DNA of 64,000 nucleotides from Streptantibioticus ferralitis (GTDB taxonomy: Bacteria > Actinomycetota > Actinomycetes > Streptomycetales > Streptomycetaceae), in NCBI RefSeq assembly GCF_029223525.1, contig NZ_JARHTQ010000017.1:62001-126000 (forward strand), in the 5' to 3' direction. Numbering within the stretch: the stretch's first letter is position 1; each line of letters starts with the position of its first letter. Shown here one piece after another: positions 43,689 through 52,574 of this stretch. A model generated the notes under the pieces. That model was not told the DNA's origin. It was given only the letters and a program-made list of their open reading frames with translations, and did not search any database. The translations under genes were made by a program, and so were the position numbers.

Positions 43689-44354
43689 TCACCGTCTGGC
43701 GGCCAGCCGGCAGCTGAACGCCGTGGCGGCGGCGCAGGCCACGACCGCGAGGGCGAGCGGGAGCACCGGCAGGTGCACCGCGCCGGTGCTCGATCCGCTG
43801 ACCAGGCCGCTGACCGCGGCGTTCGCCGGAGACCCCGAGGCGACCAGCAACAGCAACGCCGCCAGTGCGGTGACGGGTATCGGCCAGCCGGGGCGGCGCA
43901 GTACCGGCGGGTTGCACAGGGCGCCGACCGCGGTGCCGAGCAGGGCGCAGGCAAGGGTGGCCAGCAACCCGGCGGCCACGGCCGGTCCCATCGGCACCCG
44001 CAGTGTGTGGTTGTCGGTCTGCGGGTCGCTGATGGCGGCGACGATCAGCGACCCGACCGCGCCGAGGACCGCAGACGCGGTGAACGCCGTGACGGTACAG
44101 GCGAGTTGCACCCGGGTCGGACCCGCGGCGGCCTGGGTGATGGCACGGGCGGCGGGCGGCTCACCGGTCGCGCAGACCCGTACCAGCCACCCGGACACCG
44201 GGAGGATCGCGGCGGCCGTGACACCGAGGGAGTCCAGCACCGGCTGCCCCGACTGGATGCCGATGCCGATGATGACGCCGTAGAGCAGCAGCGGCGGAAG
44301 CCAGCGCTGTGATCGCAGCAGGAGCGCGGCCTGATAGCGCAGCAGGGCGGTCAT
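43689..44354 (-). CDS. ABC transporter membrane subunit
   Basis: Hydrophobic protein of 221 residues with about six helices (WLPPLLLYGVIIGIGIQSG, TASAVLGAVGSLIVAAIS, AAGLLATLACALLGTAVGAL and the C-terminal VLPLALAVVACAAATAF). It has no recognised signature and is identified mainly by context: its ATG overlaps the stop of the ABC ATPase by 4 bp. Together they look like a small export-type transporter. Substrate unknown. Confidence 0.75.
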   Translation of the reverse strand: MTALLRYQAALLLRSQRWLPPLLLYGVIIGIGIQSGQPVLDSLGVTAAAILPVSGWLVRVCATGEPPAARAITQAAAGPTRVQLACTVTAFTASAVLGAVGSLIVAAISDPQTDNHTLRVPMGPAVAAGLLATLACALLGTAVGALCNPPVLRRPGWPIPVTALAALLLLVASGSPANAAVSGLVSGSSTGAVHLPVLPLALAVVACAAATAFSCRLAARR

Positions 44355-45232
44355 CGGGCCACTCCGTAGGGAATCGCACCGCCACCGGGCGGGTGGGCGG
44401 GACGCACCGCGCGGATGTGCCAGGGCGGATCCGCGGTCAGCAGTGCGCGTAGCGCGGTATCGGACCGGTCGGCGGGCAGGGTGATCCGCAGCAGCCTCGG
44501 GGTGCCCGCCTGGTCGGCGGGCGGCTGCGGCGCGGTGGCGCCGGTGTGCCGCGCGAGCGCCGCGGGCGGCTCGCCGGTGCCCTCGGCCTCGATCACCACC
44601 TGCGGCACCTCGGGGGAGCCGGCGCGGCTGTCGGCGAGCCGCCCGTTCGCCACTCGGTGGACTCGGGCCCCGGCCCCGGTGAGCCGCCGAGGATCGTGGT
44701 CGACGAAGACGGCGGTGCCGCCCGCGGCCACCCGCTCGGTCACGGCCTCGTCGAGATGTGCGCGGGCCGCGGTGTCCAACCCCGTCCACGCCTCGTCGAG
44801 TACGAGCAGCTCCGGCTCGGCCAGCAGGGCCTGCGCGACGGCGACCTTCTGCGCGGTCCCCTTGGACAGCAGGTCCAGCGAGGTCCCCGCGTAGCCGGTG
44901 ATGGCGAAGCGCTCAAGCCATGTGTCGGCGCGCGAGGCCGCCTGCCGACCGGACAGCCCGTGCACCCGGCCCATGTGGACGAGGTACCCGGCGGCGTCGA
45001 ACGGCAGGGTGGCAGCGAAGCGTTCGGGCACATAGGCGGTGCGGGGGCGGCCCGTGATCCGGCCGGTGGTCGGCGCGTCGATCCCCGCGAGCAGCCGCAG
45101 CAGCGTGGACTTTCCGCTGCCGTTGGTGCCCGCTATGCGCAGCAGCGCACCGGCTGGCAGATCGAGGTCTATGTCGCGCAGCACCCATGGCCCGCGCATC
45201 CGGTAGCGCCGCCCCACCGCCTCCAGCCTCAT
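44351..45232 (-). CDS. ABC transporter ATP-binding protein
   Basis: ATPase of 293 residues. It shows Walker A AGTNGSGKSTLL, an LSKGTAQKVAVAQALL signature (the usual LSGGQ is LSKGT), Walker B LLVLDEAWTGLD and H-loop VFVDHDPRRL. After the ABC domain (about residue 205) there is an 85-residue extension ending in PPGGGAIPYGVAR with no family match. LSKG signatures are common in antibiotic- or lipid-export ATPases. The ATG at 45232 has GGGGGGCGAG upstream. Confidence 0.87.
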   Translation of the reverse strand: MRLEAVGRRYRMRGPWVLRDIDLDLPAGALLRIAGTNGSGKSTLLRLLAGIDAPTTGRITGRPRTAYVPERFAATLPFDAAGYLVHMGRVHGLSGRQAASRADTWLERFAITGYAGTSLDLLSKGTAQKVAVAQALLAEPELLVLDEAWTGLDTAARAHLDEAVTERVAAGGTAVFVDHDPRRLTGAGARVHRVANGRLADSRAGSPEVPQVVIEAEGTGEPPAALARHTGATAPQPPADQAGTPRLLRITLPADRSDTALRALLTADPPWHIRAVRPAHPPGGGAIPYGVAR

Positions 45233-45353
45233 GTCGCTCGCCCCCCGTCGTCGACGCCGCCGCGCGGCGTGTTCCTGTCGTACGGCCAACGGACCCGCTC
45301 CGGGGTCCGTTCCCGGCCGCCGATCGTTCACCCGTTCGTGTGGCGGATCGTGG

Positions 45354-45359
45354 CATGCT
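45354..45359 (+). promoter_or_regulatory. -10 element of a probable leaderless promoter (PTH2-like gene)
   Basis: CATGCT ends six bases before GTG 45366. Confidence 0.45.
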
Positions 45360-45365
45360 GGCCCG

Positions 45366-46085
45366 GTGACCAGCGCTGACCCCTTCGCCGCTCCCGCCGA
45401 TTCGGCGGCCGTGGACCGCGACGCCGCCCCGCAGTTCGTGCTGCCGCTGGTGGTCCGGATCGAACGTGACACTCCGCCGGCCCGTACCGACGCCCTGGAG
45501 ACGTCCGCCCGGGCGGTGCTCACCTTCCTTTCCGATCCGCGCACGGCGGACGACGGCGAGTGGGCGGAACTGCTGCGCGGCTGGGAGGACGGCAGGATCC
45601 GAAAGGTGGTACGCCGGGCCCGCGGCGCGGAATGGCGCAGGGCCGAGTCGCTGCCCGGCATCACGGTGGCGGGCCGGTCGGCGATGGTCCGGGTGTACCC
45701 GCCGGTGCCGCTGGACGGCTGGCCCAAGGAGCTGGCGAAGTTGCAGGTCTCCGGTACGGAGTTGGCGGACCCCGACCCCTCGGGCCCGCCGGACCCTTCG
45801 CTGCCGGTGTTGTGGCTCAACCCCGGGTTGGAGATGTCGGCGGGCAAGGCGATGGCCCAGACGGGGCACGCCGCGCAGCTGGCCTGGTGGGCACTGCCCG
45901 CCAGCGCGCGCAAGGCATGGCAGGGCAGCGGCTTCGACCTGGCCGTACGCACCCCCGAACCCGCGCACTGGGCCGAACTGGCCGGAAGCGATCTGCCGTT
46001 GGTCCATGACGCGGGCTTCACCGAGATCGCCCCCGGCTCCTGCACGGTCGTCGCGGACCACCCGGCGCTGCGCGCGGCCCGCTGA
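45366..46085 (+). CDS. Peptidyl-tRNA hydrolase type 2-like protein
   Basis: Protein of 239 residues. The C-terminal half matches the PTH2 fold found mainly in archaea and eukaryotes: LNPGLEMSAGKAMAQTGHAA (catalytic-helix region with Lys and His) and GFTEIAPGSCTVVADHPA. The N-terminal half (QFVLPLVVRIERD, ALETSARAVLTFL) looks like a second, degenerate copy of the same fold, making the protein about twice the usual length. It may release peptides from peptidyl-tRNA beside the normal Pth, but activity is unproven. GTG start, no ribosome-binding site. Confidence 0.8.
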   Translation: MTSADPFAAPADSAAVDRDAAPQFVLPLVVRIERDTPPARTDALETSARAVLTFLSDPRTADDGEWAELLRGWEDGRIRKVVRRARGAEWRRAESLPGITVAGRSAMVRVYPPVPLDGWPKELAKLQVSGTELADPDPSGPPDPSLPVLWLNPGLEMSAGKAMAQTGHAAQLAWWALPASARKAWQGSGFDLAVRTPEPAHWAELAGSDLPLVHDAGFTEIAPGSCTVVADHPALRAAR

Positions 46086-46091
46086 CGGCTA

Positions 46092-46113
46092 CCGGGGCCG
46101 CCGTGGGCCCCGG
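46092..46113. terminator. Bidirectional terminator hairpin
   Basis: CCGGGGCC gccgtg GGCCCCGG, a perfect 8-bp stem in the gap between the convergent PTH2-like and P-loop kinase genes. Confidence 0.6.
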
Positions 46114-46716
46114 CTACGGCGGCCCGTACGGCGTGTCCGGCCCCGCTGGGGCCACCGCGGGCCACAGCGCGATGACCCGGTCGGCCACTTCCCGGACGCT
46201 GAGGCCGCCGGTGTCCACCACCAGGGTGCCCGGCGGGTCGGACGCCGCGATCTCCTCCAACTGACGTGCGGTCCTGGTCAGTTGTTCACCCGCTTCGCTG
46301 CCCGACTCCCGGCGCAGCACCCGCCGCCGGAGCACGTCACGGTCCGCGGTGAGCCGGACCACGGTGAACGCCGCGTCGGGCACCGCTTCGGCGATCCACG
46401 GCAGCTCCTGCCGCAGGTCCGCGAAGACCCCGCACAGCGTCAGGCGACGGTGGCCGAGGTCCGCGTAGTTCGCCCAGACCGCGGCGAGGTTGCGGCGGGC
46501 CACTTCCCACACCGGCAGCCCCGGCACCGGCCAGGGGTGGATCCGGTCCAACTCGTCGCAGTCGAGGACGGTGTGTGCCACCGACTCCGCGGCAAGCCGC
46601 AGCGACACCTCGTACGCGGTGGAGCTCTTGCCCACGCCCGCCGCGCCGCAGATGACGAGTACGTCCACCGTGTCCGCGATGTTTCCGCCGCTTCGCCCGT
46701 CCGTTTCGACCCCCAT
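46114..46716 (-). CDS. P-loop nucleotide kinase-like protein
   Basis: ATP-binding protein of 200 residues with Walker A CGAAGVGKSSTA near the N-terminus, an acidic Walker-B-like LDCDELDRIHPWPVPG and a possible lid RRRVLRRESGSE. The fold resembles small adenylate/shikimate-kinase-like enzymes, but the substrate is unknown. The ATG lies 8 nt after CACACT (46725-46730, minus strand), so it is probably leaderless. It diverges from the DUF692 operon. Confidence 0.75.
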   Translation of the reverse strand: MGVETDGRSGGNIADTVDVLVICGAAGVGKSSTAYEVSLRLAAESVAHTVLDCDELDRIHPWPVPGLPVWEVARRNLAAVWANYADLGHRRLTLCGVFADLRQELPWIAEAVPDAAFTVVRLTADRDVLRRRVLRRESGSEAGEQLTRTARQLEEIAASDPPGTLVVDTGGLSVREVADRVIALWPAVAPAGPDTPYGPP

Positions 46717-46724
46717 GGCGCGTC

Positions 46725-46730
46725 AGTGTG
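46725..46730 (-). promoter_or_regulatory. -10 element of a probable leaderless promoter (P-loop kinase)
   Basis: CACACT on the minus strand, eight bases before ATG 46716. Confidence 0.35.
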
Positions 46731-46777
46731 GTCCGGACCGCAGCACACCGCCAGAGCGCAACCTCAAATCGACCTCT

Positions 46778-46799
46778 GAACCCCGTCGTTGGGGGGTTC
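46778..46799. promoter_or_regulatory. Inverted repeat between kinase and DUF692 operon
   Basis: GAACCCC (46778-46784) and GGGGTTC (46793-46799), 7 bp perfect, separated by 8 bases in a divergent promoter region. An operator is likelier than a terminator. Confidence 0.35.
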
Positions 46800-46921
46800 G
46801 GTGCCGCCACGGCTGGTGAAGAGCCCCGCGGGGGCACGTGTCAGCCGACCATGCCGCGCGCCCCGGCGGGAACGGCATCCGAACGGTACTGGCAGACGTT
46901 TCGCATCCGGAGGGGGACCGC

Positions 46922-47767
46922 ATGCAGCACCTGGGCGTTGGTATCGGCTGGCGGCCGGAGATCGACACGGTGGTCGAGGGGCTGGACGGCGTCGAGTGGG
47001 TCGAGGTGGTCGCCGAGAACATCTGCCCCGACCATCTGCCGGACTCGGTGCGGCGGTTGCGCGAGCGTGGCACCACGGTCGTCCCGCACGGTGTGTCGCT
47101 CGGGCTCGGCGGGGCCGAGCGGCCCGACCCGGTGCGACTGGCGGCGCTCGCCGAGCGCGCGCGGGCGCTGGGCGCCCCGCTGGTGACGGAGCACATCGCG
47201 TTCGTACGGGCCGGTGGACCGCTGACCGGCACTCCCGCCCTGGAGGCCGGGCACTTACTGCCGGTGCCGCACACCCGCGACGCGCTGGACGTGCTCTGCG
47301 AGAACGTGATGATCGCGCAGGACGCGCTGCCGGTGCCACTGGCGCTGGAGAACATCGCGGCGCTGCTGCGCTGGCCGGACGAGGAGTTGTCCGAGGGCGA
47401 GTTCCTGGCCGAACTCGTCGAGCGCACCGGCGTCGGCCTGCTGGTCGATGTGGCCAACCTGCACACCAACCACGTCAACCGCGGTACGGATCCGGCCAGT
47501 ACCCTCGACCGGCTGCCGTTGGAGGCGATCGTCTACGTCCATGTCGCGGGCGGGGTCGAACGCGATGGCGTGTGGCACGACACGCATGCCCATCCGGTGT
47601 CCGAGCCGGTGCTGGAGGTGCTCGCCGGGCTGTGCTCGCGGCTGTGTCCGCCGGGTGTGCTGCTGGAGCGCGATGACGACTTTCCGCCGGGGACCGAGCT
47701 GGCCGCCGAACTCGACGCGGTCCGGGGTACGTTGACGGGAACGCGCCGGGAGGTGCGTCATGTCTGA
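46922..47767 (+). CDS. DUF692 (MNIO/MbnB-like) multinuclear iron oxygenase
   Basis: TIM-barrel metalloprotein of 281 residues in the DUF692 family, whose studied members (MbnB, TglH, bufferin enzymes) use two or three irons and oxygen to modify peptide cysteines. Probable ligands: [58 protein letters not shown] and ERDDDF. I start at ATG 46922, which follows GGAGGGGG; an in-frame GTG at 46838 lacks a site. The stop overlaps the partner gene by 8 bp. The substrate peptide is not identified; see the TIGR04222 protein downstream. Confidence 0.88.
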
Positions 47768-48254
47768 TTCCGCCGGTCGCACGCCAGCGGTCGGGGTGGA
47801 GGGCGCGCGTCAGCGCCTCGCGCTCGCCCAGACCGCCCTGTTGTCCGCGTTGGTCGCGTCCACTCCGGTACCCGGTGGGTTCGACCCGGCCAGGATCCGG
47901 GTGCAGACCGTCGCGTTGGCCGCGAAGCGGGCCGACATCGTGGCGAAGGTGGCGCCCGAACTCCCGGTGATCCTCGGCGCGGACTACCGGCCCGCCTTCG
48001 TGCGCTACGCCCGCTCCCGGCCGCTGCCGGGCGGCTACCGGCGTGACGCCCTGGCCTTCGTGGCCTCGCTGCTGGACGATCAGGGCGGGCCCGCGCAGCC
48101 GCCCGGCCGCCGCGAGGAACTGGCCTCGTGGTGGGCGGAGCGTTCAGGACCGGCGCCGCTGAGGGCCGCGCGCGCTAGCCGTGTGCTGCGCCGTCTCAAC
48201 CCCCGTACGACGCTGCGGGCAACGCGTGGGCGTGCCGGCCGCACGCCCGCTTGA
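47760..48254 (+). CDS. DUF692-associated helical partner protein
   Basis: Mostly helical protein of 164 residues directly coupled to the DUF692 enzyme: GGGAGG precedes an ATG that lies inside its last codons. The pattern [40 protein letters not shown] and [14 protein letters not shown] recalls the N-terminal domain of the DUF2063/HvfC partner proteins that present substrate peptides to MNIO enzymes. I see no strict motif, so the partner role is inferred from context and this resemblance. The last 30 residues are Arg-rich. Confidence 0.7.
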
Positions 48255-48357
48255 CCCCGAGAGATCGGCCGAACTCCCGGGCGCCGCAAGCCTGTACGTC
48301 GCACTGGGCACCGAAATCCCGAGGCGGATTGTCAGTGGCATCCAGTACAACACCCTT

Positions 48358-49221
48358 ATGTGGGTTTCCCTGCTTCTCGTCGCCTGGGCGGCGGCGCTTG
48401 CCTCCTGTGCGCGGCTGTGCCGGGCGGCGGTCGCCGCCGCCCGGGAGTCCCCCGCCGTCGACGACCAGCGCGGCCATCCGGAGACGGACGCCGGTTCGCC
48501 GGAACTCGGCCTGTACGAGGCGGCGTTCCTCGCCGGCGGGCCGAACCGGGTCACCGACCTCGCGATGGTGGCGATGTCCCGGCAGCGGCGGCTGCTGCTG
48601 GCCTACACCGGTTGGGCCACCGTCGTCGACCCGGTCGGCCGGGATGAGGTGGAGCGTTCGCTGATCGCCTCGATAGGACCTGGCGGCCAGTCCCTCATAC
48701 CGGCGGTCCGCACGGTGCACGCCGCCGCCGACTGCGTCCGCGCGCTCGGCGAGCGCCTCGCCTCGGCCGGCCTCGCGGTGCCCGCGCCGGTCCGCGACGG
48801 GATGACCGCGGGGATCCGGCAGGCGCGGGCGAGTGCTGTGCTCATCTGCGCCCTGCTGGCCGCCTCCACCGGTGTGGACCGGCCCGGCGCGGACGACGCC
48901 GGCCCCCTGTGGTTCGCGCTGCCGCTGCTGCTGACCGTGGGGTGCCTGGTCATCGCCCGGGTCGAGGTGTACCCGTACGCCCGCTGGGCCTCGCCCGCCG
49001 GTCAGGAACTGCTGCGGGCGATACCCGTGCCCCGGCCGCGGCACCGCCCAGCGGGCGGCGCCGCGGGCCAGGGGCTTGCGGGTCGCACCGATGACCGCTC
49101 GCTGCTCACGGCGCTGGCGGTACGCGGGCCCGCCGCCCTGAGCGACCCCGCACTGCGCGCGGCGCTCGGGGCGGGCCGCCGCACCGTGCTCGGCGCGCGC
49201 CGCGAACCGCGTTCCTGCTGA
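48358..49221 (+). CDS. TIGR04222-domain membrane protein
   Basis: Membrane protein of 287 residues, third gene of the DUF692 operon. It has an N-terminal helix with two cysteines (SCARLC, about 16-21), the TIGR04222 core LYEAAFLAGGPNRVTDLAMV and RRLLLAYTGWATVVDP, and further helices (about 165-180 and 190-205). Relatives often end in long Gly/Cys-rich tails. This one ends in a basic, low-complexity tail with one terminal cysteine (REPRSC). ATG 48358 fits the start of relatives but has no ribosome-binding site, and 103 bp separate it from the partner gene. Confidence 0.75.
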   Translation: MWVSLLLVAWAAALASCARLCRAAVAAARESPAVDDQRGHPETDAGSPELGLYEAAFLAGGPNRVTDLAMVAMSRQRRLLLAYTGWATVVDPVGRDEVERSLIASIGPGGQSLIPAVRTVHAAADCVRALGERLASAGLAVPAPVRDGMTAGIRQARASAVLICALLAASTGVDRPGADDAGPLWFALPLLLTVGCLVIARVEVYPYARWASPAGQELLRAIPVPRPRHRPAGGAAGQGLAGRTDDRSLLTALAVRGPAALSDPALRAALGAGRRTVLGARREPRSC

Positions 49222-49251
49222 GGGGAGTTGACGGCCGCCCGCCGCGGCGGC

Positions 49252-49974
49252 TCAGGCCAGGCCGGCCACCAGCTCGGAGACGGCCTTGCGGCGGCCGGTG
49301 AAGAACGGCACCTCCTCGCGGACGTGCCGCCGCGCCTCGGAGCCGCGCAGGTGCCGCATCAGGTCGACGATGCGGTACAGCTCATCGGCCTCGAACGCGA
49401 GGATCCACTCATAGTCACCGAGGGAGAAGGAGGCGACCGTGTTGGCCCGCACGTCCGGGTAGCTGCGGGCCATCTTGCCGTGGTCCGCGAGCATCCGCCG
49501 CCGGTCCTCGTCGGGCAGCAGGTACCAGTCGTAGGACCGTACGAAGGGGTAGACGCTCACGTAGTCGCGCGCCGTCTCGTCGGCGAGGAACGCCGGGATG
49601 TGCGACTTGTTGAACTCGGCGGGGCGGTGCAGCGCCATGTTCGACCACACCGGCTCCAGCGCGCGGCCGAGCTTGGTGCGGCGGAAGAGGTTGTAGGCGT
49701 CCTGGAGCGCGTCCGAGGTCTCGGAGTGCCACCAGATCATGACGTCGGCGTCGGCGCGCAGGCCGGACAGGTCGTAGGTGCCGCGTACCGTGACGTCCTT
49801 CGCGGCGAGCTGCTCGAACAGCTCCTCGACCTCGTCCGCGTACCCGGTGCGGTCCTCGGGCAGCGGGGAGCGCAGCTTGAACACCGACCAGAGGGTGTAG
49901 CGGATCACTTCGTTGAGGTCACGGGCCTTCTTGCCCGCGTTGGGTGCCTTCGCGGCGGCAGCGTTCTCGGTCAT
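49252..49974 (-). CDS. hemQ: Coproheme decarboxylase HemQ (chlorite-dismutase family)
   Basis: Last enzyme of the coproporphyrin-dependent haem pathway, turning coproheme III into haem b with peroxide. The 240-residue length and motifs fit: [15 protein letters not shown] with the catalytic tyrosine region, and [12 protein letters not shown] with the proximal histidine. The chlorite-dismutase distal Arg context is not seen, as expected for HemQ. It begins 4 bp after the hemG stop, behind GGGAG, so it is coupled to hemG. This gives the order hemE-hemG-hemQ on the minus strand. Confidence 0.93.
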
Positions 49975-49978
49975 GCGG

Positions 49979-51484
49979 CTATTCTCCCGCGCCGTCCTCG
50001 ATGCCCAGCCCCGGGGTGCCCGCTGGCTCCGCGGGCCGGTCGGGCACCGGGGTGCCGAAGGTCCGCAGAGCCTCGTCGGCGGCCTTGTGGGCGCTCGCGA
50101 CGCACGCCGGGATGCCCACACCGTCGTAGACCGCGCCGCACACCGACATGCCCGGCAGCTTGGCGACCTGCTCACGGATCCTGGCCACCCGCTCCAGATG
50201 GCCGACGGGGTACTGCGGCAGTCCGCCGTCCCACCGGGTCACCCGCGCCGCGATCGGCGCCGCGGTGATCCCGGCCGCCTCGGCGAGGTCCTCGCGGGAC
50301 AGCCGCACCAGGTCGGTGTCGTCCCATGCGAGGTCCGCCTCCTCGCCGTATCTGCCGACCGAGGTGCGCAGGACGAACGTGTCGGGTCCGGCCTCCGCGA
50401 TCCAGCCCCACTTGCGGCTGGAGAAGGTGGACGCCTTGATCGTGCGGCGATCCACCGGTGGCACCAGGAAGCCGCTGCCGCCGGGCATGTTCAGCAGGTC
50501 GCGGCGGCGGAACGCCATGGTCACCAGTGCCATGCCGGCGTACTCCACGGTCGCCAACTCGGCTGAGGCGGCGGGTGATTCGGCGGCCAGCAGTCGTGCG
50601 GCGGCCGGTGCGGGCACTGCGAGCACAACCGCGTCGGCATCCAGCACCGACCGGCCGCCGGTTGTCTGGACGACCGCCTGCCATCCGCTGGCGGTGCGGC
50701 GCAGCTCGCGCACCTCAGCACGGGTCCTGATGTCCACACCCGCCGCCCGGCAGGCCTGCGCGACGGCCAACGGCAGGCGTCCGACGCCGCCGCGGATGCC
50801 CATGAAGACGGCTCCGTCCTGGGCCGCGGCGGCGGCCCGGCGCTGGACGCCGCGTACCGCCTCGATCAGTGAGCGCTGACCGCGTGCCGCCTCGTAGAGC
50901 TGGGGAACGGCGGCGCGCAGCGAGATCTGGTACGCGTTGCCCGCGTAGACCCCGCCCAGCAGCGGCTCGACCAGGCGGTCGACCACCTCCCGGCCGAGCC
51001 GGGCGGCCACGTACGCACCGACCGCGACGTCCTCGCCGACCTCGGTGCGCGGCAGCACATGGTCCAGCGGCAGCCGCGCCAGCCCGGCGGGCGACAGCAC
51101 ACCGGACGCGGACAGCGGCCCCAGATCACCCGGCACGCCCATGATGTGGCCGCGCGGCATCGGCCGTAGCCGACCGCGGGTCCACAGCGCGGCTCGCGCG
51201 GTGGCGGGCGGCTGCAGTTCGTCGCCGAGCCCGGCGTCCCGAGCCAGCTCGACCGCCTCCGGCCGCCGAGCGAGCATCGACTCCGCGCCGAGGTCGACCG
51301 GCACCCCGGCGATCTCGTCGGCGTACAGCTTGCCGCCGAGCCGGGAGGACGACTCCAGTACGGTCACCCGGGCCCCGCCGGCGACCAAGCGGAACGCCGC
51401 GGCCAGTCCCGAGATACCACCGCCCACCACGAGGACATGACCCGCGCCGGGTCCGCGACCGGACTGCTCCCGCACTGCGTTCAT
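49979..51484 (-). CDS. hemG: Coproporphyrinogen III oxidase (HemG/HemY type)
   Basis: FAD enzyme of 501 residues that oxidises coproporphyrinogen III to coproporphyrin III in actinobacteria. The FAD dinucleotide-binding motif is [15 protein letters not shown] near residue 17, with [17 protein letters not shown] after it, and the C-terminal [17 protein letters not shown] closes the FAD site. HemQ next door favours this over the protoporphyrinogen role. I use ATG 51484; CACAGT lies seven bases upstream, and GTG 51493 in that element is an unlikely start. It lies 22 bp after hemE, so it may also be read from the hemE transcript. Confidence 0.93.
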
Positions 51485-51491
51485 GCCCTCC

Positions 51492-51497
51492 ACTGTG
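51492..51497 (-). promoter_or_regulatory. Possible internal -10 element before hemG
   Basis: CACAGT on the minus strand, seven bases before ATG 51484, in the 22-bp hemE-hemG gap. Confidence 0.3.
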
Positions 51498-51506
51498 CCA
51501 CCGCCG

Positions 51507-52574
51507 TCAGCGTGCCTCGGACGCCTGGTGGACGAACTCCACGAGTCGGGTCAGCGCGTCCGGATCGGTGTTCGGCAGCACGCCGTGGCCGAGGTTGAAG
51601 ATGTGCCCGGGCGTGTCCTTCGCCGAGTCCAGCACCTCGCGTGCCTTGGTCTCGACGGCCGGCTGAGGGGCGAACAGCACCGCGGGGTCCAGGTTGCCCT
51701 GGAGCGCCTTGTGCGGTCCCACCCGACGGGCTGCCTCGTCCAGCGGGACCCGCCAGTCGACGCCGACCACGTCCGCGCCCGCCTCTCCCATGAGGCCGAG
51801 CAACTCGCCGGCGCCGACGCCGAAGTGGATGCGCGGCACGTCGTACGGCGCGACCGCCTCGAAGACCTTCGCCGAGGCGGGCATGACGGAGCGCCGGTAG
51901 TCCTCTGGGGCGAGCGCGCCGACCCAGGAGTCGAAGAGCTGCACGGCCGAGGCGCCCGCCTCGATCTGCACCTTGAGGAACGCGGCGGTGATGTCGGCGA
52001 GCCGGTCGAGGAGTTCGGACCACAGCTGCGGGTCGCCGTACATCAGCGCCTTGGTGTGCTCGTGGTTGCGCGACGGGCCGCCCTCGACGAGGTAGCTCGC
52101 CAGGGTGAACGGCGCGCCCGCGAAGCCGATCAGCGGGGTGCCGCCGAGTTCGGCGGTCAGCATGCCGATCGCCTCGGTGACATAGCTGACGTCATCCGGT
52201 TCCAGCGGGCGCAGCCGGTCGAGGTCGGCGCGGGTCCTGATCGGCTCGGCGATCACCGGGCCAATACCCGGCTTGATGTCGAGGTCGAGGCCGATGGCCT
52301 TGAGCGGGACGACGATGTCGCTGTAGTAGACGGCGGCGTCCACCTTGTGGCGCCGTACCGGTTGCAGCGTGATCTCGGTGACGAGGTCCGGGCGCATGCA
52401 CGATTCGAGCATCGCGGTGCCCTCGCGCACCTTGTGGTACTCGGGCAGCGAACGCCCGGCCTGCCGCATGAACCACACCGGGGTGTGCGACACCGGCTCG
52501 CGTCGACACGCCCGGATGAACGCCGAATCGGCGGTCCGTTGGCGTGCTTGGTCTGTCCGCTGCTGAGCATTCAC
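51507..52574 (-). CDS. hemE: Uroporphyrinogen decarboxylase
   Basis: Removes four acetate carboxyls from uroporphyrinogen III to give coproporphyrinogen III. The protein has 355 residues. Diagnostic motifs are [13 protein letters not shown] near the N-terminus, [24 protein letters not shown] and the C-terminal [17 protein letters not shown] 52574 starts a protein that aligns with the family. It has no good ribosome-binding site; GAAGAT six bases upstream is a weak leaderless candidate. First of the hemE-hemG-hemQ series, divergent from the DUF3000 gene. Confidence 0.96.

Follow-up and report, generated by a model that had tools for sequence, protein, structure and literature searches.

The locus analyzed here belongs to Streptantibioticus ferralitis (assembly GCF_029223525.1, contig NZ_JARHTQ010000017.1, positions 62,001-126,000 of the forward strand), and this whole stretch of 64,000 nt is referred to below as the window. 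Three genes of the same strand follow one another (Table 1) and encode an enzyme of the MNIO (DUF692) family, a short partner protein and a TIGR04222 membrane protein; the reading frames of the first two overlap by 8 bp. This layout had been described in an earlier, sequence-only reading of the same DNA and is confirmed here. The open reading frame of the third gene, which runs from position 48181, is too long: we place the gene start at the Met of MWVS..., at about 48358, since a congener has an in-frame stop immediately 5′ of this conserved Met.

Table 1. Genes and other features of the window around the MNIO gene (type A, Cys-tailed TIGR04222 proteins; type B, their tail-less paralogs).
Feature	Position	Strand	Basis
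PTH2-domain protein, conserved neighbor	45231..46085	+	PF01981, E 1e-8
P-loop NTPase-like neighbor	46114..46716	-	AAA_18, E 4.7e-5 (below its cut-off)
MNIO (DUF692) enzyme, 281 aa	46922..47767	+	PF05114; alignment with family members and TglH
Partner, 164 aa, PME-type 2-like	47760..48254	+	Fused or adjacent in relatives
Gap; site of the type A gene in many relatives	48255..48357	.	Gene order in relatives
TIGR04222 membrane protein, type B, 287 aa	48358..49221	+	TIGR04222, 112 bits; type B clade, 100/100
Conserved downstream neighbor, presumably HemQ	49252..49974	-	Present in the loci of relatives

The surroundings of the three genes are largely shared with relatives. The PTH2-domain neighbor falls in the same protein cluster in 20 of the loci that were clustered, and the P-loop NTPase-like gene occupies the same position in both congeners. 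Up to three TIGR04222 genes are found at relatives' loci, often between the PTH2-domain gene and two heme genes that we take to be hemQ-hemG. In many Streptomyces a DUF4142 gene adjoins the MNIO gene (L106:3379-4128 and similar loci), and a gene for a TAP-like alpha/beta hydrolase lies between the TIGR04222 genes and hemQ (L106:6837-8405 and similar loci); this hydrolase has 8 Cys in 16 of 17 members and 9 in the other, and is also encoded at the MNIO-less locus L096. Between the partner and type B genes of the window, tblastn gave no convincing type A remnant (no match better than about E 0.1 among the matches listed), and a search under narrow criteria for short open reading frames lying mostly outside called genes, from 44000 to 52000, returned no candidate for a small local precursor gene.

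Judging from its reading frame, ligands and profile scores, the window MNIO is predicted to be an intact iron enzyme. It matches PF05114 with 257.3 bits (cut-off 25, E 1.8e-76), and its score against the profile of its own family, 509 bits, sits among the 449-527 bits found over the loci of that family. The His/Asp/Glu pattern noticed by the sequence-only reading is borne out: residues H56, H91, E143, D176, N179, H207, D220, H222 and E249 align with the nine metal ligands of TglH, as listed in the accessible part of PMC10880893, and none is missing. The protein scores below the cut-off of every NCBIfam MNIO equivalog that it matches, among them HvfB (139.2 vs 360 bits), ApyH (116.3 vs 400) and ChrH (43.8 vs 600). 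The fold was assessed through a fused relative with 77% identity to the window MNIO; in its model, the MNIO domain forms a TIM barrel like those of TglH and MbnB (Z 25.7 and rmsd 2.9 Å over 265 aligned residues with TglH, 8hi7_B). The window genome also holds a second MNIO locus, of bufferin type (G000:C33, L067:8068-11704), where the MNIO exceeds the BufB cut-off (371 vs 310 bits) and is accompanied by a DUF2063 partner, a ferritin-like protein and a Cys-rich protein of 196 aa with weak similarity to BufA2 (21 of 60 bits), a precursor-like protein that is unusually long for such a locus.

Searches of the partner against Pfam and NCBIfam returned nothing at E ≤ 1. It is encoded directly after the MNIO and is devoid of a DUF2063 signature, as is the case for PME-type 2 partners. 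The sequence-only reading had likened it to the helical DUF2063/HvfC partners, and a weak profile similarity does exist: hhalign of the partner family against DUF2063 proteins of other MNIO loci gave E 0.00096 with a probability of 22%, compared with E 0.32-0.41 for four unrelated controls, a result that would weakly fit a PME-type 2 identity. A partner gene or fused domain is present in all 69 sampled loci of genomes with TIGR04222 and this MNIO, hence the association is more than chance. Fusion of the two proteins accounts for 15 of these 69 loci and is found in many Streptomyces; among the named loci with this MNIO, 78 of 79 have the partner and 67 of 79 have it fused. When the two genes are split they lie on one strand at most 200 bp apart, in 69 of 69 split loci counted over all stretches, a different set from the 69 sampled ones. 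The model of the fused relative (mean pLDDT 82) has an all-helical partner part, and its structure matches include no DUF2063 protein or TglI among those listed, which cover the MNIO part only. In the accessible part of PMC12452194, many MNIO-TIGR04222 clusters seem partner-less and we found no mention of MNIO-partner fusions; fusion, together with the short length of the partners, may explain their apparent absence there.

The third protein is indeed a TIGR04222 membrane protein, as had been proposed, with a profile match well above the cut-off of 43 bits. To place it, we draw on a survey of 80 stretches from members of the host family, to which both congeners and the window genome's other MNIO locus were added, with genes called on the first half of the stretches and all of them scanned with profiles built here. 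Two paralogs emerge. Type A proteins carry a Ser/Gly tail with a median of about 8 Cys in the last 100 residues (106 proteins; range 1-14), whereas type B proteins have 0-1 Cys in the C-terminal segment and end where the type A tail would begin. A tree of 45 proteins, computed with most of the tail left out and lacking the type A proteins of L069, L075, L081 and L082 that the gene caller had missed, groups the type B proteins into a single clade of 19 rows. Some further Cys-tailed proteins form a third group, separate from type A, and one protein, L107_7, has a single tail Cys though it falls outside the type B clade.

The window protein lies within the type B clade, beside the proteins of its two congeners, and its C-terminal segment has one Cys instead of a Ser/Gly-rich tail with several. 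It therefore represents the tail-less paralog and has not arisen from a tailed protein by tail loss; the sequence-only reading, which described a tail lost except for a terminal Cys, has to be corrected in this respect, what is missing being the gene of the tailed paralog. The type B protein is the sole TIGR04222 match in the window genome, a draft of 110 contigs that is 99.17% complete and in which all 64 candidates were scored, so that no type A was found there.

The arrangement of the tail relative to the membrane matters for any role as a substrate. In the model of the type B protein (mean pLDDT 86.5), one long helix is followed by a soluble domain and then by a pair of long helices, an order that would place the domain and a C-terminal tail on one side of the membrane. 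For 75 type A proteins of three hydrophobic segments each, the counts of K+R and D+E are 3.5/1.0 following segment 1, 3.6/0.7 ahead of segment 2, 0.9/2.0 from segment 2 to segment 3 and 4.8/1.0 beyond segment 3. By the positive-inside rule, this charge bias suggests that the tail faces the cytoplasm, where the MNIO could reach it, contrary to the periplasmic placement of TIGR04222 tails given in the accessible text of PMC12452194. In 25 of 103 type A proteins and in 8 of 10 of the third group there is a fourth hydrophobic segment, with which the tail would come to lie on the other side; the cytoplasmic placement is tentative on this account. The type B model had no Foldseek match to solved structures at E 0.001 or better; in a second comparison, the best Z was 10.0 over about 100 residues of long helices, which is below chance for helical bundles.

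Co-occurrence of the two protein families is conserved across the host family. The 297 genomes divide into 226 with MNIO and TIGR04222, 21 with TIGR04222 alone, 26 with MNIO alone and 24 with neither, in a search that scored 9 TIGR04222 candidates per genome. At the level of loci, 58 from genomes with both families were chosen by their MNIO row and 56 of them hold the MNIO family studied here; a Cys-tailed TIGR04222 protein, defined by four or more Cys among its last 100 residues, is encoded at 53 of the 56. Adding 13 further loci brings the count to 64 of 69, and the smaller set is the fairer one because those 13 were picked mainly from the TIGR04222 list. Both counts refer to genomes with both families, to the exclusion of the 26 MNIO-only genomes, and to a non-random choice of loci in which best-scoring rows came first and small genera were favored. 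Among the exceptions, G136 (L283) has its Cys-tailed protein encoded at another locus, away from its MNIO-partner pair. MNIO-less genomes present the opposite picture: with one match discarded as not a real member (G049), 20 of 21 genomes remain, with a Cys tail in 0/20 and type B in 20/20.

A Fisher test of Cys tail against MNIO gives p 1.6e-15 when kinship is ignored. On a hemQ tree of 88 loci, 57 have both, 19 neither, 12 the MNIO without a Cys tail and 0 the reverse, and the distribution requires a minimum of 5 changes in MNIO and of 10 in the Cys tail. An independent-pairs test on this tree gives p 0.25; with only about 5 MNIO changes, there are too few pairs for it to reach significance. 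The direction of the association is consistent, and significance is not reached after correction for kinship. Loci that have the MNIO and no Cys tail alongside it are not unusual: the 64 named loci that reach hemQ, chosen as the closest to the window MNIO, comprise 43 with a Cys-tailed protein, 12 with type B only and 9 with none, i.e., 21 of 64 lack the Cys-tailed copy.

The two congeners (G001 and G002) have the TIGR04222 gene and are devoid of MNIO and partner, with conserved gene order around the empty site, and their type B proteins are 80.7% and 78.2% identical to that of the window. Since much of the family has the pair at this very position, it is simpler to assume that the congeners lost it. 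The window genome, G007 (L071) and G222 (L190), in which MNIO and partner coexist with type B as the only TIGR04222 protein found in the genome, represent a middle state. A recent horizontal gain of the pair by the window species is conceivable but not supported; its MNIO falls close to the base of the Streptomyces group, next to those of G007 and Wenjunlia, with no starred placement in the MNIO tree.

If the window species is taken by itself, type A may have been lost recently, with the MNIO left behind. The corresponding alternative, i.e., that the pair has been substrate-less since then and is on its way out as in the two congeners, seems to us unlikely, albeit the strongest competitor. It would account for congeners that lack exactly MNIO and partner, for the more frequent changes of Cys-tailed copies on the hemQ tree (10, vs 5 of MNIO) and for the failure to find a substrate in the window draft genome. 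However, the reading frame, ligands and profile score of the window MNIO are intact, and its comparison with the five closest relatives, all with type A, gives dN of 0.13-0.14 against dS of 0.75-0.89. In addition, MNIO is retained in groups without recognizable TIGR04222: in a tree of 64 MNIOs, one clade of four rows, with support 95, consists entirely of TIGR04222-less loci.

Of the 26 MNIO genomes in which the family-wide search gave no TIGR04222 match, 22 have an intact full-length MNIO of this family, 21 of these with the partner in the stretch; among the other four, two stretches end near the match and two contain different or incomplete MNIO matches. When more TIGR04222 candidates were scored in these genomes, none of the 26 had a match over the cut-off and 8 had weak ones below it, and a search with the type A profile gave 3 weak matches among the 83 of 136-284 candidates scored in each genome, the one in G217 being a type B fragment. 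Based on pooled pairs with partly saturated sites, the median MNIO dN/dS is 0.30 at the 113 loci that encode a Cys-tailed copy; it is 0.21 at 17 loci where only type B is present and 0.22 at 16 that have neither. One of those 17 type-B-only loci, L245 from Streptomyces, has a type A gene that, like the partner part, seems to be in pieces, possibly a case of ongoing decay or a sequencing error.

Given the low dN/dS and the TIGR04222-less MNIO clade, the MNIO is not simply drifting after type A loss, and it is therefore likely, at least in those groups, that another substrate exists. We tentatively extend this to a broader proposal, to which we give somewhat less than even odds: selection would keep MNIO and partner in several Streptomycetaceae lineages, including that of the window, without a Cys-tailed protein and in some of them without recognizable TIGR04222, the substrate being encoded elsewhere and the Cys-rich tail being one client of a broader enzyme.

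A rather improbable alternative is that the window's own TIGR04222 protein is modified, either at its terminal Cys, as with TglHI, or at its N-terminal cysteines. Both sites, the terminal Cys and the N-terminal SCARLC, are present and had been put forward by the sequence-only reading. The terminal Cys closes a C-terminal extension that is private to the window protein and absent from both MNIO-less congeners, and TglHI is known to act on a C-terminal Cys (PMC10880893, accessible part). Nevertheless, a terminal Cys is found in 1/117 type B proteins (some genomes counted twice), which rejects it as a conserved feature, and the other 16 type B proteins at MNIO loci without a Cys-tailed copy lack it. 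The two SCARLC cysteines, in turn, are common where there is no MNIO (15/22 and 14/22 type B rows, two genomes counted twice). The two sites are weak candidates for these reasons, and the third option offered at the outset, a peptide encoded elsewhere, is now the more likely one. It is less probable still that no Cys-peptide pathway is involved and that the MNIO modifies a non-Cys residue of another neighbor, for instance the DUF4142 protein. Several Streptomyces that lack type A have the DUF4142 gene in its place, and a gene of the DUF4142 protein cluster, often adjoining the MNIO, is found at 20 of 35 loci without a Cys-tailed copy vs 6 of 16 with one (both sets hand-picked), but none was seen at the window locus and one lies at an MNIO-less locus (L095).

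Our preferred reading, with a probability of about one in two, is that the window holds an intact MNIO pair of a published class, that type A was lost here and that the substrate, if there is one, is encoded elsewhere. In complete relatives, and by analogy with known MNIO systems, MNIO and partner would most likely oxidize Cys residues in the Ser/Gly/Cys-rich tail of type A; the oxidized residues might form a metal-binding group as in bufferins, to judge from the family. We infer that the type A gene was lost, rather than never gained, by the window genome. As its type B paralog is probably not the substrate, MNIO and partner would be orphaned at their own locus and, if still active, would act on a substrate encoded elsewhere, for which no candidate was identified in the draft genome.

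These observations bear on a question that is still open in print, namely whether TIGR04222 membrane proteins are MNIO substrates; our literature search returned neither an experimental study of these proteins nor any measurement of their mass or activity. The Cys-tailed paralog, found in 0/20 sampled MNIO-less genomes, and the tail-less paralog, which stands alone there, make a clean pair for such a test, and the fused MNIO-partner proteins offer a one-chain construct for biochemistry. The analysis also points to genomes that retain MNIO without a visible substrate. The window locus is incomplete in an informative way and raises the question of what the MNIO targets when the tail is absent.

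The sequence-only reading had considered the system possibly undescribed. It is not, because Antoine et al. (2025, PMC12452194) report, in the accessible part of their article, TIGR04222 genes near MNIO genes in Actinomycetota: TIGR04222 follows MNIO in >10% of cases, PME-type 2 partners occur in at least 10%, and the C-terminal Ser/Gly/Cys regions of TIGR04222 are proposed as possible substrates. The same text states that one third of TIGR04222-bearing genomes have no MNIO and reports a "loose association" for the family, for which the split into Cys-tailed and tail-less paralogs offers an explanation. The published clusters share with the window all three families, the short partner without DUF2063 signature and the PTH2-type neighbor, named "adjamnio-II" there. 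They differ in that the window has no Cys-tailed TIGR04222 protein, the tail-less paralog alone remaining. Neither the two-paralog split nor the MNIO-partner fusion was found in the accessible part of that article.

Three characterized MNIO systems can also be compared. TglHI, of the 3-thiaglutamate pathway, resembles the window pair in its MNIO fold, its nine metal ligands and its requirement for a partner; on the other hand, identity over the aligned domain is 24% (fused relative), no TglA-like precursor is seen at the window locus and the window partner is short. Bufferin systems (BufABC) provide the closest NCBIfam equivalog, BufB, yet the window MNIO stays far below its cut-off (178.5 vs 310 bits), its partner is without a DUF2063 signature and no signal-peptide precursor is seen at the locus. 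With the methanobactin enzymes MbnBC, the window pair shares the MNIO fold, whereas the MbnB model gives 33.8 bits against a cut-off of 325 and the partner has no MbnC match in Pfam or NCBIfam.
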